45,286 nt of DNA, taken from the NCBI GenBank assembly GCA_902776945.1, contig CACYSH010000079.1, forward strand, positions 1 to 45,286, given 5' to 3'. This document shows, in pieces, positions 10,938 to 15,808 of the stretch (position 1 is the stretch's first letter; every line of letters starts with the position of its first letter). The notes under the pieces were generated by a model, which was given only the letters and a program-made list of their open reading frames with translations, was not told where the DNA came from and searched no databases. This stretch comes from an uncultured Ruminococcus sp. GTDB lineage: Bacteria; Bacillota; Clostridia; Oscillospirales; Ruminococcaceae. The translations under genes were made by a program, and so were the position numbers.

Positions 10938-11081
10938 GTTAGATAAAGCTAATCTGTTTGGGCAGGTATACAAAACATAAGCAGACGACCATTTTTTGCT
11001 TGACAAGCACCGAAAAAAGTGATAATATAAAAGTTAGATAAAGCTAACATTTTTCACGAGCAGTGGTTAGTTATATCTAAT
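10938..11081 (+). promoter_or_regulatory. Three spaced-palindrome operators upstream of feoAB
   Basis: Three copies of an inverted pentamer separated by six bases: GTTAGATAAAGCTAAT (10938-10953), GTTAGATAAAGCTAAC (11033-11048) and GTTAGTTATATCTAAT (11066-11081). The second starts five bases after the -10 element at 11023-11028 and so covers the likely transcription start, where a repressor would act. The half-site TTAG/CTAA resembles operators of DtxR/IdeR/MntR metal regulators. Given the ferrous iron transporter downstream, an iron-sensing DtxR-type repressor is the best guess; the identity of the regulator is inference. Confidence 0.65.
11000..11028 (+). promoter_or_regulatory. Upstream promoter of the feo operon
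   Basis: TTGACA (11000-11005), 17-bp spacer, TAATAT (11023-11028). It lies between operator copies one and two, with copy two over the predicted start site. Confidence 0.7.
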
Positions 11082-11151: not shown

Positions 11152-11180
11152 TTGAATAGTTAGGATAAAAATGATATAAT
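11152..11180 (+). promoter_or_regulatory. Second, proximal promoter of the feo operon
   Basis: TTGAAT (11152-11157), 17-bp spacer, TATAAT (11175-11180), with TG just before the -10. It is 38 bp upstream of the feoB start. A partial half-site GTTAGG overlaps the spacer at about 11158-11163. Two promoters may give both repressible and basal expression. Confidence 0.7.
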
Positions 11181-11218: not shown

Positions 11219-13567
11219 ATGACACTTAACGAGCTTGAAGTTGGCGGCAGCGGTAAGATCACGGAGGTCGGCGGCGAGGGCGCTCTGCGGCAGCATTTTC
11301 TTGATATGGGCGTGATACCCGGCGCAAAGGTCACGGTGCTGCAATACGCGCCGCTCGGCGACCCGATAGAACTGCTGATACACGGCTACACGCTCACGCT
11401 CCGCGTTGCCGACGCGGCACAGATAGGCATTGTCCGCAGCGAAAAAAGCGCGGCAGAGCAGAAAAAGTCTCACCGTCAGAAGACCGAACACCCGGGTCTC
11501 GGCGAGAGCGGACTGCGTTTCCACCCGAAGGGCAGCGGCACTCCCCTCCCCGACAGCGAAACGCTCACCTTCGCGCTCGTCGGCAATCAGAACTGCGGCA
11601 AGACCACGCTTTTCAACAGGCTTACCGGCTCGAACCAGCACGTCGGCAACTTTCCGGGCGTGACCGTTGACCGCAAGGACGGTCCTATCAAGGGGCGCGA
11701 GGAAAAGACCCTCGTTACCGACCTGCCCGGCATTTACTCGATGTCGCCGTACAGCAGCGAGGAGATCGTTTCGCGAAATTTCGTGCTTGAACAAAAGCCC
11801 AAGGCGATAATCAACATCGTTGACGCTACCAACATCGAGCGCAATCTGTACCTCACCATGCAGCTTATCGAGATGAATTTCCCGATGGTCGTGGCGCTCA
11901 ACATGATGGACGAGCTTACCGCCAACGGCGGCAGCATCGACATTAACCAAATGGAGGAAATGCTGGGCGTGCCTGTCGTGCCGATCTCCGCCGCGAAAAA
12001 TTCGGGCGTTGACGAGCTTATCGACCACGCCGTGCATATCGCCAAATATCGCGAAAAGCCCGTCAGACACGATTTCTGCGACGAGAACGAGGCGGGCGGC
12101 GCGGTTCACCGCTGCCTGCACGGGATCGCTCACCTCATCGAAGACCACGCAAAAGCAGAAGGGATACCCGTGCGGTTCGCCGCAAGCAAGGTCATCGAGG
12201 GCGACGAGATCGTGCTGAAAGCGCTGAAGCTCGACAAAAACGAGCTGGAAACTATCGAGCATATCGTGTTGCAAATGGAGAACGAACGCGGGCTTGACCG
12301 CAGCGCCGCTATCGCCGATATGCGGTTTTCGTTCATCAAAAAGGTCGCGAAAAACACCGTCCACAAGCCGACCGAGAGCCGCGAGCATATCCGCAGCCGT
12401 AGGATCGACCGCGTACTTATCGGCAAATATACGGCTATTCCGTCGTTTATCGCAATAATGGGGCTGGTTTTCTTCCTGACGTTCAACGTCATTGGTGCGT
12501 TTTTCCAAAATCTGCTTGAAATCGGTATTGAAAAGCTGACGGCGGTAGTAGATAGCAGTCTTACGAACGCGAACGTAAACAGCACGATACACAGCCTTAT
12601 CACCGAAGGCATTTTCACGGGCGTTGGCAGCGTTCTGAGCTTCCTGCCCGTGATCGTCACGCTGTTTTTCTTCCTCTCGCTGCTCGAAGACAGCGGCTAC
12701 ATAGCGCGTGTGGCGTTTTTTATGGACAAGCTGCTGCGAAAGATCGGTCTTTCGGGGCGGAGCATCGTCCCCATGCTGATAGGCTTCGGCTGCTCGGTTC
12801 CCGCCGTGATGTCAACGAGAACGCTCCCCAGCGAGCGCGACAGAAAAATGACCATACTGCTCACGCCGTTCATGAGCTGCTCGGCAAAAGTGCCTATCTA
12901 CGCATTCTTCGTAAGCACGTTTTTCCCGGGCAAGGGCGCTTTCATCATGACCGCGCTCTACGTTATCGGCATACTGACCGCAATATTCGTCGCCTGCGTG
13001 TTCAAAAGCACGCTGTTCAGGGGCGAAGCGGTGCCGTTCGTCATGGAGCTGCCTAATTACCGTCTGCCGGGCGCTAAAAACGTCGCGCTGCTGCTCTGGG
13101 AAAAGGCGAAGGACTTCCTGCAAAAGGCGTTCACGGTGATACTTGTTGCGACTGTCATAATATGGTTCTTGCAGCGCTTTGACCCGCGGCTCAACATGGT
13201 CGAAGATCAGAAGGACAGCATTCTTGCGCTTATCGCGGGACTGATAGCGCCTGTTATGCAGCCGCTCGGGCTGGGCGACTGGCGGATATGCACATCGCTT
13301 ATCACAGGCGTTATGGCGAAGGAGAGTGTCGTTTCCACGCTGGGAATCCTTTTCAGCGGAGATGTTGCGGGGGCTATGAGCAAGCTGTCGGCGGCGGCGC
13401 TTTTGGTGTTCACGCTGCTGTATACGCCCTGCGTGGCGGCTATCGCGGCGATAAAGCGCGAGCTTGGCAGAAAATGGGCTGTCACCGTAGTAGTATGGCA
13501 ATGTGCGGTAGCGTGGGTCATGGCGCTGCTCGTGCGCGGTATCGGACTGTTAATGGGGGTCGGATAA
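11219..13567 (+). CDS. feoB: FeoA-FeoB fusion, ferrous iron transporter
   Basis: A 782-residue inner-membrane Fe(II) transporter. Residues 1-75 are a FeoA-type SH3-like domain (MTLNELEVGGSGKITEVGGE onward), joined by a linker to a G-protein domain: G1 GNQNCGKT at 122-129, G3 DLPG, G4 NMMD. A helical region and the Gate-containing membrane domain follow (for example SGRSIVPMLIGFGCSVPAVM and FMSCSAKVPIYAFF). FeoA is usually a separate small protein; fusion to FeoB is known in some lineages. The start at 11219 follows GGGGGAAG. It leads an operon with the cysteine-rich FeoB-associated peptide one base downstream, then the GNAT-Nudix regulator-like gene and nadE. Metal-responsive operators lie upstream. 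Confidence 0.95.
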   Translation: MTLNELEVGGSGKITEVGGEGALRQHFLDMGVIPGAKVTVLQYAPLGDPIELLIHGYTLTLRVADAAQIGIVRSEKSAAEQKKSHRQKTEHPGLGESGLRFHPKGSGTPLPDSETLTFALVGNQNCGKTTLFNRLTGSNQHVGNFPGVTVDRKDGPIKGREEKTLVTDLPGIYSMSPYSSEEIVSRNFVLEQKPKAIINIVDATNIERNLYLTMQLIEMNFPMVVALNMMDELTANGGSIDINQMEEMLGVPVVPISAAKNSGVDELIDHAVHIAKYREKPVRHDFCDENEAGGAVHRCLHGIAHLIEDHAKAEGIPVRFAASKVIEGDEIVLKALKLDKNELETIEHIVLQMENERGLDRSAAIADMRFSFIKKVAKNTVHKPTESREHIRSRRIDRVLIGKYTAIPSFIAIMGLVFFLTFNVIGAFFQNLLEIGIEKLTAVVDSSLTNANVNSTIHSLITEGIFTGVGSVLSFLPVIVTLFFFLSLLEDSGYIARVAFFMDKLLRKIGLSGRSIVPMLIGFGCSVPAVMSTRTLPSERDRKMTILLTPFMSCSAKVPIYAFFVSTFFPGKGAFIMTALYVIGILTAIFVACVFKSTLFRGEAVPFVMELPNYRLPGAKNVALLLWEKAKDFLQKAFTVILVATVIIWFLQRFDPRLNMVEDQKDSILALIAGLIAPVMQPLGLGDWRICTSLITGVMAKESVVSTLGILFSGDVAGAMSKLSAAALLVFTLLYTPCVAAIAAIKRELGRKWAVTVVVWQCAVAWVMALLVRGIGLLMGVG

Positions 13568-13568
13568 T

Positions 13569-13736
13569 ATGAATTTTGCGGATATAATTCTCGTGATAAT
13601 AATAGCCGCCGCAGTAATTTTCGCTGTAAAGGGTACTGTCCGCCGCAGGAAAAATGGCTGCTGCTGCGGCTGTTCGGGCTGCCAGATGAGCGAATGCGGC
13701 TGTCGGCTGCAAAGTGCAGCAAAGGAGACAAAATGA
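13569..13736 (+). CDS. FeoB-associated cysteine-rich membrane peptide
   Basis: A 55-residue protein too short for many gene callers. It begins MNFADIILVIIIAAAVIFAV, one membrane helix, then a basic stop-transfer segment and a cysteine-rich tail with seven Cys: CCCGCSGC, then SECGC. This layout matches the FeoB-associated Cys-rich membrane protein family found after feoB in Firmicutes. Its role is unproven; binding or passing ferrous iron at the cytoplasmic face is plausible. The start is one base after the feoB stop and its stop overlaps the next start by four bases (ATGA), so it is translationally coupled on both sides. Confidence 0.9.
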   Translation: MNFADIILVIIIAAAVIFAVKGTVRRRKNGCCCGCSGCQMSECGCRLQSAAKETK

Positions 13737-15037
13737 TCTATTATAATGATGATAACATAACGATACGCGACCTTGCCGAAACGGACGCGCAGTACTTCGC
13801 GGACGAGGAAATGAAACAGGGCTGGAACTCCACACCCGAAAAGCTGTTAATGCAGCTCAAAGACGCTGCCGACGGCAAATGCACAGCTCTCGCCGCCGAC
13901 TACATGGGCGAACCTGCGGGCTACATTCATCTCTATTTCGAACCGGAGGGCGCTTTCGCGGGGACGGGCTTTCCCGAGATAGTCGATTTCAATGTATTAC
14001 AGAAATTTCAAAAGCGCGGTATCGGCTCTAAGCTAATGGACATTGCCGAAAAGCTCGCGGCGGAGCGCTCCGATACGGTGTGTCTCGGCGTGGGACTTCA
14101 TAACGGCTACGGCAGCGCACAGCGAATGTACGTCAAGCGCGGGTATATCCCCGACGGCACGGGCGTTTGGTACAATGGCAAGCCCTGCACGCCCTATGAC
14201 ACGATCTACACCAACAACGACGACCTTGTGCTTTATATGTCCAAAAAGCTGGACTATTCTTATGAAAAATTCCCCCGCCCGTCGGTCGCGGTGGATTGTG
14301 CGCTTTTCGGGTTGGAATCGGTGCCGCCCGAGAAACGATCGCAGCTTGACACCAAAAAGCTGAAAATCCTGCTGGTAAAAAGAGGTTCCGCCCCTCACGA
14401 GGGAATGTTCGCCCTGCCGGGAGGTTTCCTGCGCGAAAACGAGACCGTCGAACACGCATTGCTCCGCGAAATGGACGAGGAGACCGGCATCAAAGACGAG
14501 CTTAAAACCATAAATCTCGGCATTTACAGCAAGGTCGGGCGCGACGAACGCGGCTGGATAATCTCCTGCGCGTTCCTTGCGCTGACCAACAAGGTCGAGC
14601 TGTGTTCAAGCGCCCAGTCCGACGCGGCAGAAGCGCGGTGGTTCGATTTTGATTTCGCAGAGAACAAAGACGGCGCTGTGATATTGCTCAGGGACGGCGC
14701 GGACAGCATCAGGCTCGATTACAAAAACGGCGAAAGCTGCGGCGAACAGGCGCTCGCCTTCGACCACGCGCAGATAATCTACGACGCATTCCTAAAACTG
14801 CGCGAGGAGGTCGTTATCCACGACCTGATCTTCCCACTGCTGCCGCCGCTCTTCACGATAGCCGATTTGCAGCAGCCCTACGAGCTTATAACAGGTATAC
14901 AGACATCTCCCGCGAATTTCCGGCGGAAGATGATGAACAAAATAACCGAAACAAACGAAACGGCGGCGGCGATCTCGCACCGCCCCGCCAAACTGTACCG
15001 CGTCCGCACGGACGACGAAAATATCAGGGAGGAATGA
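13733..15037 (+). CDS. GNAT acetyltransferase-Nudix-winged helix fusion, NrtR-like
   Basis: A 434-residue three-domain protein. Residues 1 to about 165 are a GNAT acetyltransferase with the acetyl-CoA loop region QKFQKRGIGSKLM. Residues about 180-335 are a Nudix domain with a complete Nudix box starting at G231 (G, five residues, E, seven residues, REMDEETGI). The C-terminal part (about 345-430) has the winged-helix pattern of NrtR regulators: FTIADLQQPYELITG, then NFRRKMM and HRPAKLYRV. NrtR proteins sense ADP-ribose or related NAD derivatives and repress NAD genes; nadE follows after three bases, which fits. What is odd is the added acetyltransferase and an intact catalytic Nudix box. The start at 13733 overlaps the preceding stop; an upstream in-frame ATG at 13694 lies inside that gene. 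Confidence 0.85.
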   Translation: MIYYNDDNITIRDLAETDAQYFADEEMKQGWNSTPEKLLMQLKDAADGKCTALAADYMGEPAGYIHLYFEPEGAFAGTGFPEIVDFNVLQKFQKRGIGSKLMDIAEKLAAERSDTVCLGVGLHNGYGSAQRMYVKRGYIPDGTGVWYNGKPCTPYDTIYTNNDDLVLYMSKKLDYSYEKFPRPSVAVDCALFGLESVPPEKRSQLDTKKLKILLVKRGSAPHEGMFALPGGFLRENETVEHALLREMDEETGIKDELKTINLGIYSKVGRDERGWIISCAFLALTNKVELCSSAQSDAAEARWFDFDFAENKDGAVILLRDGADSIRLDYKNGESCGEQALAFDHAQIIYDAFLKLREEVVIHDLIFPLLPPLFTIADLQQPYELITGIQTSPANFRRKMMNKITETNETAAAISHRPAKLYRVRTDDENIREE

Positions 15038-15040
15038 CAC

Positions 15041-15808
15041 ATGGACAAATTCGCATACGGTTTTGACGCAGAAAAGGTCTGCGCTGCGGCGGTGGACTGG
15101 ATAAGGGACTATTTCAAAAACAACGCGACCGAAAGCACAAAGGCGGTCATCGGCATTTCGGGCGGCAAGGACAGCTCGGTTGCGGCGGCGCTCTGCGCAA
15201 AGGCGCTCGGCACAGACAGGGTGATAGGCGTGCTGATGCCGCAGGGCGAGCAGGCTGACATTGATTGCAGCCGACTGCTTGTAAATCATCTCGGGATAAA
15301 GCATTTCGAGATAAACATAGGTTCGGCGGCGGCGGCGCTTCTTGAAAACGTCGGTAAGAGCATCGAGCTTACCGCACAGGCGAGGATAAATACTCCGCCG
15401 CGAATCAGAATGGCGACGCTCTATGCGGTTGCGGCGTGCGTGGAGGGCGGCGGAAGGGTCGTCAACACCTGCAATCTCTCGGAGGACTGGGTGGGATATT
15501 CTACCAAGTTCGGCGACAGCGCGGGAGATTTCAGCCCTATGGCGTACCTCACGGTGACGGAGATCCTTGCTATCGGCGAATATCTCGGTTTGCCGAACGA
15601 GCTTGTGCATAAAACGCCTATTGACGGACTTTGCGGCAAGACCGACGAGGAGAATTTAGGGTTCACTTATGCCGAGCTTGACACATATATCCGCGGTCTG
15701 ACCGACCTTTCCGATAAGCCCGAGCTTAAAGCGCGTATCGACCGCATGAATCGTCTGAATAAGCATAAGCTGGAAGAAATGCCGAAGTTTAAGTATTATA
15801 GCGAATAA
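15041..15808 (+). CDS. nadE: NH3-dependent NAD synthetase
   Basis: A 255-residue ATP-pyrophosphatase family enzyme that amidates nicotinic acid adenine dinucleotide to NAD, the final step of NAD synthesis, in the cytoplasm. The PP-loop SGGKDSS is at about residues 39-45, with NLSEDWVGYSTKFGDSAGD further on. There is no glutaminase domain, so free ammonia is the likely nitrogen source. The start follows GGGAGG at a good distance and the gene is three bases after the NrtR-like fusion. Placement with an NAD-type regulator and iron uptake genes suggests joint control; de novo NAD synthesis depends on the iron-sulfur enzyme NadA, which offers one reason, but that link is inference. Confidence 0.93.
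   Translation: MDKFAYGFDAEKVCAAAVDWIRDYFKNNATESTKAVIGISGGKDSSVAAALCAKALGTDRVIGVLMPQGEQADIDCSRLLVNHLGIKHFEINIGSAAAALLENVGKSIELTAQARINTPPRIRMATLYAVAACVEGGGRVVNTCNLSEDWVGYSTKFGDSAGDFSPMAYLTVTEILAIGEYLGLPNELVHKTPIDGLCGKTDEENLGFTYAELDTYIRGLTDLSDKPELKARIDRMNRLNKHKLEEMPKFKYYSE

Follow-up and report, generated by a model that had tools for sequence, protein, structure and literature searches.

A GNAT-Nudix-NrtR winged-helix fusion protein encoded between feoAB and nadE in an uncultured Ruminococcus sp.

Contig CACYSH010000079.1 (assembly GCA_902776945.1) of an uncultured Ruminococcus sp. carries four consecutive open reading frames (ORFs) at 11219-15808 on the + strand of the window, by which we mean the whole analysed stretch of 45,286 nt. 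The third ORF encodes a 434-aa protein in which a GNAT acetyltransferase, a Nudix domain and an NrtR-type winged helix are joined, and it is placed between genes for ferrous iron uptake and nadE, the gene for NAD synthase. In our judgement this protein is fairly likely to be an NrtR-type regulator with an N-terminal GNAT that arose by a recent fusion, is co-expressed with iron import and nadE, and has its functions tethered in one chain.

The gene order is feoAB (a FeoA-FeoB fusion), a FeoB-associated Cys-rich peptide, the three-domain protein and nadE. One base separates feoAB from the peptide gene, the peptide and fusion genes overlap by 4 bases (ATGA), and nadE follows the fusion gene after 3 bases. 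This order and these spacings, which had been given in a first-pass annotation made from the sequence alone, agreed exactly with the ORF coordinates (Table 1). Pfam detected FeoA (1.8e-18) and FeoB_N (6.1e-67) in feoAB, FeoB_associated (1.3e-9) in the 55-aa peptide and NAD_synthase (1.7e-48) in the last ORF. The sequence AAAGGAG precedes the start of the fusion gene and GGGAGGAA precedes that of nadE. The four genes would be carried on one transcript.

Table 1. Positions of genes, domains and upstream elements in the window.
Feature	Position	Strand	Basis
Putative metal (iron) box 1, GTTAGATAAAGCTAAT	10938..10953	.	TTAG-N6-CTAA palindrome
Putative metal (iron) box 2, GTTAGATAAAGCTAAC	11033..11048	.	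palindrome; genus comparison
Putative metal (iron) box 3, GTTAGTTATATCTAAT	11066..11081	.	palindrome
Promoter-like P1, TTGACA-17-TAATAT	11000..11028	+	consensus match only; similar sequence in sister genome
Promoter-like P2, TTGAAT-17-TATAAT	11152..11180	+	consensus match only; same hexamers in sister genome G298
feoAB, FeoA-FeoB fusion, 782 aa	11219..13567	+	ORF; Pfam; 97% identity to G298
FeoB-associated Cys-rich membrane peptide, 55 aa	13569..13736	+	ORF; Pfam
GNAT-Nudix-NrtR winged-helix fusion, 434 aa	13733..15037	+	ORF; Pfam; PDB phmmer; model
GNAT half, residues 1-173 (stand-alone GNAT in relatives)	13733..14251	+	PF00583; PaiA-like fold
Junction MSKKL-DYSYEKF	14237..14272	+	no stop, ribosome site or start codon at Nudix start
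NUDIX domain, residues 210-309 (2.2e-14)	14360..14659	+	Pfam
Intact Nudix box, residues 231-253	14423..14491	+	signature match; relatives' alignment
NrtR_WHD winged helix, residues 367-423 (5.4e-16)	14831..15001	+	Pfam
nadE, NAD synthase, 255 aa	15041..15808	+	ORF; Pfam; TIGR00552 above its cut-off

Domains of the fusion and NAD context of its relatives

Pfam assigned Acetyltransf_1 (7.8e-11) to residues 28-138, and NUDIX and NrtR_WHD to the rest of the protein, in agreement with the three domains that had been called from motifs. Sequence, model and context all mark the Nudix-winged-helix half as NrtR-like. In a phmmer search of the PDB, this half found 2fml (3e-30), BtAraR and SoNrtR among its best matches, and a profile of 16 relatives returned the same top structures, with NadQ further down. 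In the AlphaFold2 model (predicted local distance difference test score, pLDDT, 78), rows 1-11 of the structure matches were 2fml, AraR and SoNrtR over the Nudix domain and winged helix; GNAT acetyltransferases (8osp and PaiA, 1tiq) appeared from row 30 on among the best 50 rows. In the input alignment of this model (A2) viral Nudix rows are misplaced over their own first ~35 residues, and residues 135-137, 139-165 and 175-181 have a pLDDT below 50. These results indicate that the C-terminal domain matches the NrtR winged helix, as the first-pass annotation had supposed, and that the GNAT part matches PaiA-type proteins. The fusion scored 93.7 bits against the equivalog NF050029, for which 400 are required, and is therefore a relative within the NrtR family rather than that equivalog. 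It was the single NrtR_WHD match in its own genome.

The fusion shares with NrtR (SoNrtR, PDB 3gz5/3gz6/3gz8; MsNrtR) the order of Nudix domain and winged helix and, among its relatives, the NAD context, and with SoNrtR also the RD-x-RGW and FDH motifs. It differs from NrtR in its N-terminal GNAT, its intact Nudix box, its location in a feo operon, the lack of an NrtR operator found 5' of the operon, and a Glu at the position of the lysine acetylated in MsNrtR. The best solved structure by both sequence and fold is Enterococcus faecalis 2fml, with 29% identity across both domains; the solved chain has no GNAT and is named just MutT/nudix family protein. Bacteroides AraR (PDB 5bs6), also of the NrtR family, has the same two-domain fold but is an L-arabinose sensor with a broken Nudix box, as described in passages of PMC4666351.

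The first-pass annotation had treated the intact Nudix box as special. The full signature GX5EX7REUXEEXGU is present in the fusion. Among the 16 aligned relatives, fusion included, the catalytic core G-x5-E-x7-RE-x2-EE is kept in 15 and the strict signature in 10, which rules out the intact box as an unusual trait; it is the normal state.

The N-terminal half belongs to the GNAT acetyltransferases, as indicated by PF00583, the loop motif and the GNAT fold matches. The acetyl-CoA loop of this family has the consensus Q/R-x-x-G-x-G/A, and residues 93-98 of the fusion read QKRGIG. When the GNAT half was aligned with 13 relatives, 50 positions were invariant, including G96, I97 and G98 of the loop. 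Stand-alone clostridial GNATs, which are PaiA-like (1tiq, 8osp) and not fused to a Nudix-winged-helix protein, match the whole of this half, with 57-73% identity at 13 loci. A 353-aa protein (L042:8025-9086, +) joins the same GNAT family to a second, different GNAT domain.

We then examined 32 loci of stand-alone Nudix-winged-helix relatives. Within the stretch fetched for each, a homologue of an NAD gene (pncA, pncB, nadV, prs-like, nadE or nadB) was found in 21 of them, and nadE in 6 (L033, L034, L050, L131, L136 and L137); neither feoB nor a GNAT gene was found in any of the 32 at E<=1e-8. Apart from nadE, the query sequences came from L050, L040 and L065, so that L040 (pncB) and L065 (nadB) match by construction, and L050 matches through the nadE of the window as well. 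Pfam supported examples of these calls (isochorismatase, NAPRTase and NAMPT_N). The L065 protein matched FAD_binding_2, and its name nadB is our own reading of the sequence; the prs-like (PRPP-synthetase-like) protein had no Pfam match and was named by eye. In the fusion itself, the NAD association is the nadE gene 3 bases downstream. In the survey proposed in the first-pass annotation, stand-alone relatives were found near NAD genes but not near feoB, and among the sampled genomes the fusion was seen in its own genome only.

Two of the remaining 11 loci carry Nudix-winged-helix relatives near ADP-ribose genes, namely NADAR and PARG_cat_microb (L127:1426-2911, +) and PARG_cat_microb and KptA (L132:8121-9475, +), which fits ADP-ribose sensing. 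Three relatives from the same bacterial family are fusions of 721-746 aa in which a HemN-like radical SAM domain precedes the Nudix domain and NrtR winged helix (L121:1240-3405, -; L131:5876-8116, -; L133:2803-5010, +). They adjoin pncA, and L131 also nadE. They likewise place an enzyme N-terminal to the Nudix-winged-helix unit, but with a different domain, and are a second kind of N-terminal enzyme on the same regulator type. No literature on NrtR with radical SAM and Nudix was found.

Origin and rarity of the fusion

The whole 434-aa sequence was searched against overlapping genome samples, every count including the window's own genome; in the large samples up to 4 or 5 best candidates per genome were scored at E limits of 1e-20 or 1e-35, and other long open frames (e.g. 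G246:C13, G237:C5 and G464) were kept out of the fusion tally. Matches occurred in 77/297 genomes of the family (E<=1e-20), 6/13 of the genus (1e-15), 29/394 of the order, 14/391 of the class and 2/398 of the phylum (each 1e-35). Among the best candidates of these 297, 13, 394, 391 and 398 genomes, no single match outside the own genome ran across both halves; the remaining listed matches covered either the GNAT part (end <= residue 195) or the Nudix-winged-helix part (start >= residue 168). A scan of genome contigs gave 14 loci, of which 13 match in the GNAT part alone and one (L100) lies in the metagenome-assembled genome Ruminococcus sp. RUI065, here called the sister genome G298.

In G298, identity to our genes is 88% for the GNAT, 82-84% for the Nudix gene, 95% for nadE and 97% for feoAB. 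Its GNAT gene stops at a TAA inside ATGGATAA, within which the Nudix gene also starts, giving an 8-base overlap; a ribosome site, AGGAAAGGAG, lies shortly 5' of the Nudix start. The feoAB, peptide and GNAT start are at the end of one contig and GNAT, Nudix gene and nadE are on another, unjoined in the assembly. The last 19 bases of the feoAB contig are the GNAT start, whose ATGA overlap with the peptide stop is also that of the window; the second contig begins ~12 GNAT bases past that end. Very probably, the two species share one gene order and differ in the fusion alone. Since the sister has the GNAT and Nudix genes in the same order as two overlapping genes, the fusion appears young, and it looks as if it arose recently from two neighbours that were probably translationally coupled. 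The fusion, described at first pass as an architecture that had gained an acetyltransferase, is one known case, with two genes in the sister, and not a conserved architecture.

The junction reads LYMSKKL and then DYSYEKFPRPSVA. The typical end of stand-alone GNATs is LYLSKKL(K)*; Nudix proteins that stand alone start with MYSIENFERPSVA or LYSLENYDRPSVA. The fusion contains essentially the whole of both proteins. Production of a separate Nudix protein from an internal start seems unlikely, as the sole nearby in-frame ATG (Met169) has no visible ribosome site.

Ratios of nonsynonymous to synonymous substitution (dN/dS, Nei-Gojobori) between the own genome and G298, averaged over fused and unfused lineages, were 0.136 for the GNAT, 0.155 for the Nudix-winged-helix part and 0.103 for residues 336-434, which include the winged helix. 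Between the species this stretch is better conserved (90/98 residues) than any other part of the fusion. The values were 0.064 for nadE, 0.043 for feoAB and 0.231 for the 55-aa peptide. The low ratios of the GNAT and Nudix-winged-helix parts show that both halves are under purifying selection.

Metal boxes and operator search

Three TTAG-N6-CTAA palindromes occur in the window (expected 0.53), all at 10939-11080 and 139-280 bp upstream of feoAB; 1 of 100 shuffles reached three. Box 2 follows the -10 of P1, and P1 and P2 flank the boxes; promoter-like matches in this region (4) are as frequent as in shuffles (4.2). With up to one mismatch, GTTAGNTNNANCTAAC was found at 13 sites across the genome, whereas its reversed pattern was found at none. 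Besides the three boxes here, sites lie shortly 5' of a second feoB (feoB2), 5' of a Fe_dep_repress protein with a ZIP transporter next in order, and 5' of an AraC-type regulator that precedes an ABC-type protein (the latter named by eye). Two more precede a DUF3793 gene (L143, G000:C246:882-932), which suggests that the DUF3793 family belongs to the metal regulon. Both features expected of a DtxR-type iron regulon, a palindrome shared by iron genes and an encoded DtxR-type regulator, were found. The box is not an NrtR site, because G300, another genus member, has boxes before feoAB but no NrtR match at 1e-15. These sequence patterns make metal (iron) control of the operon likely. The metal regulator and the direction of iron control would be those of our model below.

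Among seven relatives with 45-54% identity (L033-L039), GTTA elements lie directly 3' of the -10 of the nrtR promoter. GTTAnnAAC is present in 6 of the 7, with two copies 14 bp apart in 4, and in L034 a pair of plain GTTA stands at the same 14-bp distance; in the other loci shown, GTTAnnAAC was not found at that place. We regard these elements as a candidate operator for this NrtR branch. More distant relatives have, by eye, a different, TTATTATCA-like element there. A position weight matrix was built from 11 half-sites of the seven relatives. Upstream of feoAB its best score fell on a half-site look-alike, ATAGTTAGGATAA at 11156 inside P2, which was rejected as chance-level. The NFRRKM stretch of the fusion (from residue 395) resembles, by eye, relatives having operator-like repeats. 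For the link between iron status and NAD level proposed at first pass, the boxes support the metal side; no NrtR-type operator was found upstream.

Function of the fusion and rival explanations

In the model we favour, the Nudix part would most likely bind ADP-ribose or a similar product of NAD breakdown, which it would probably still hydrolyse. Ligand binding would loosen the winged helix from DNA, and low NAD turnover would leave NAD genes repressed. A DtxR-type metalloregulator would shut the operon promoters when iron is plentiful, and under iron scarcity the ferrous iron importer, NAD synthase and the regulator would be produced jointly. The GNAT part, with its conserved family residues, would most likely be an enzyme that is tethered to the regulator and acts on a substrate of its own. 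We consider it most likely that the genes are co-expressed and the functions tethered.

Several results weigh against this model. No recognised NAD or ADP-ribose gene was seen in 9 of the 32 stand-alone loci, some of these stretches being short. Five of the 13 box sites have no evident metal link and lie near ABC ATPase, methyltransferase, PHP-like, aldolase-like and enolase-like genes (by eye). Of seven genus members compared, three have boxes before feoAB (three each in the own genome, G298 and G300), and none were found at that place in G302, G299, G035 and G213. The operator matrix scored at best 6.6 upstream of feoAB, compared with 12.7-17.8 for its training sites, and 56% of shuffles reached that score; across the own genome the direct-repeat pattern gave 14 matches versus 15 for the control, without enrichment. 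There is one fused sequence only, and six other genus members with close feoAB (72-77% identity) lacked matches to GNAT, Nudix and nadE alike in the fetched stretch, which for G302 covered just 0.6 kb 3' of feoAB. The arrangement is therefore known from two species only. Besides the sister, 6 nadE and 6 feoAB loci of the genus lacked the other operon genes in the surroundings fetched, except for the peptide of feoAB in some. The coupling of iron, NAD and acetyl-CoA proposed at first pass is weakened by the absence here of the relatives' operator-like repeats and by Glu359, which stands where MsNrtR has its acetylated K134, as judged by eye from MsNrtR LVAKLSYTN and fusion LREEVVIHD with the SoNrtR alignment as a bridge. 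As to the operator, NrtR sites differ widely between groups according to passages of PMC4666351, so the operator may have diverged or the target may lie elsewhere.

The missing operator also agrees with an enzyme-only explanation, which we consider unlikely: the Nudix-winged-helix part would now be mainly an ADP-ribose pyrophosphatase for NAD recycling, and its winged helix a relic or dimerisation module without regulation. The full catalytic box, with the core kept by nearly all aligned relatives, points the same way, and passages of PMC4666351 describe the box as impaired in NrtR regulators of NAD metabolism. However, the part with the winged helix is the one best conserved between the two species, and its NFRRKM stretch is like that of relatives with operator-like repeats.

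The first-pass suggestion of acetyl-CoA as a third input, in which the GNAT would acetylate the regulator part, NadE or another NAD protein and carbon status would set NAD supply, appears doubtful. The fusion itself, the overlap of the GNAT and Nudix genes in the sister and the intact GNAT family residues speak for it. Passages of PMC6800001 report that MsNrtR is acetylated at K134 and that K134 mutants bind DNA more weakly, but also that this acetylation is non-enzymatic, by acetyl phosphate. Acetylation of the K134 equivalent by the GNAT is ruled out by the Glu at that position in our alignment by eye. Moreover, the GNAT family is widespread, and apart from the sister no member among the 9 + 13 GNAT loci inspected adjoins a Nudix-winged-helix gene. 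Similarly doubtful is a broader idea in which NAD synthase belongs to the iron-starvation response and the GNAT-NrtR protein reads ADP-ribose through its Nudix domain and acetyl-CoA through its GNAT, joining iron, NAD turnover and carbon; with the radical SAM fusions, NrtR would then be a module that repeatedly captures N-terminal enzymes as a second sensor.

An artefact of assembly or sequencing, with two genes as in the sister being the true state, is a very improbable explanation of the fusion: this is one draft genome of 280 contigs, but the junction differs from the sister at many bases, lacks a ribosome site, start or stop, has an in-frame linker (YSYEKF) resembling native N-termini of relatives (YSIENF, YSLENY), and could not be produced by a single-base error.

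Rfam gave no match in the window at gathering thresholds, and plasmid records held a single weak feoB match and nothing else. Each component type is known by itself: NrtR regulators, feo operons under iron control, and stand-alone GNATs. Among the literature matches listed, neither a GNAT-NrtR fusion nor a combination of feo and nadE was reported, and further searches gave nothing on this operon. As far as the literature and genome samples were searched, the fusion and the feo-nadE operon are a new variant.

Of five NAD_synthase matches in the own genome above the Pfam cut-off of 21 bits, the operon nadE scored 164.9 bits; the other four (23.7-25.9 bits, spanning 33-126 of 242 positions) are probably related ATP-pyrophosphatases. 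The only clear nadE of this genome lies behind metal boxes. This placement allows a connection of NAD supply with iron status to be tested directly in gut anaerobes, and hints that NAD supply is adjusted together with iron. The fusion is probably an NrtR variant co-expressed with iron uptake and nadE. The sister pair, with two overlapping genes in one species and a single gene in the other while the rest of the operon is conserved, is a natural experiment on what an NAD regulator gains from such a fusion.

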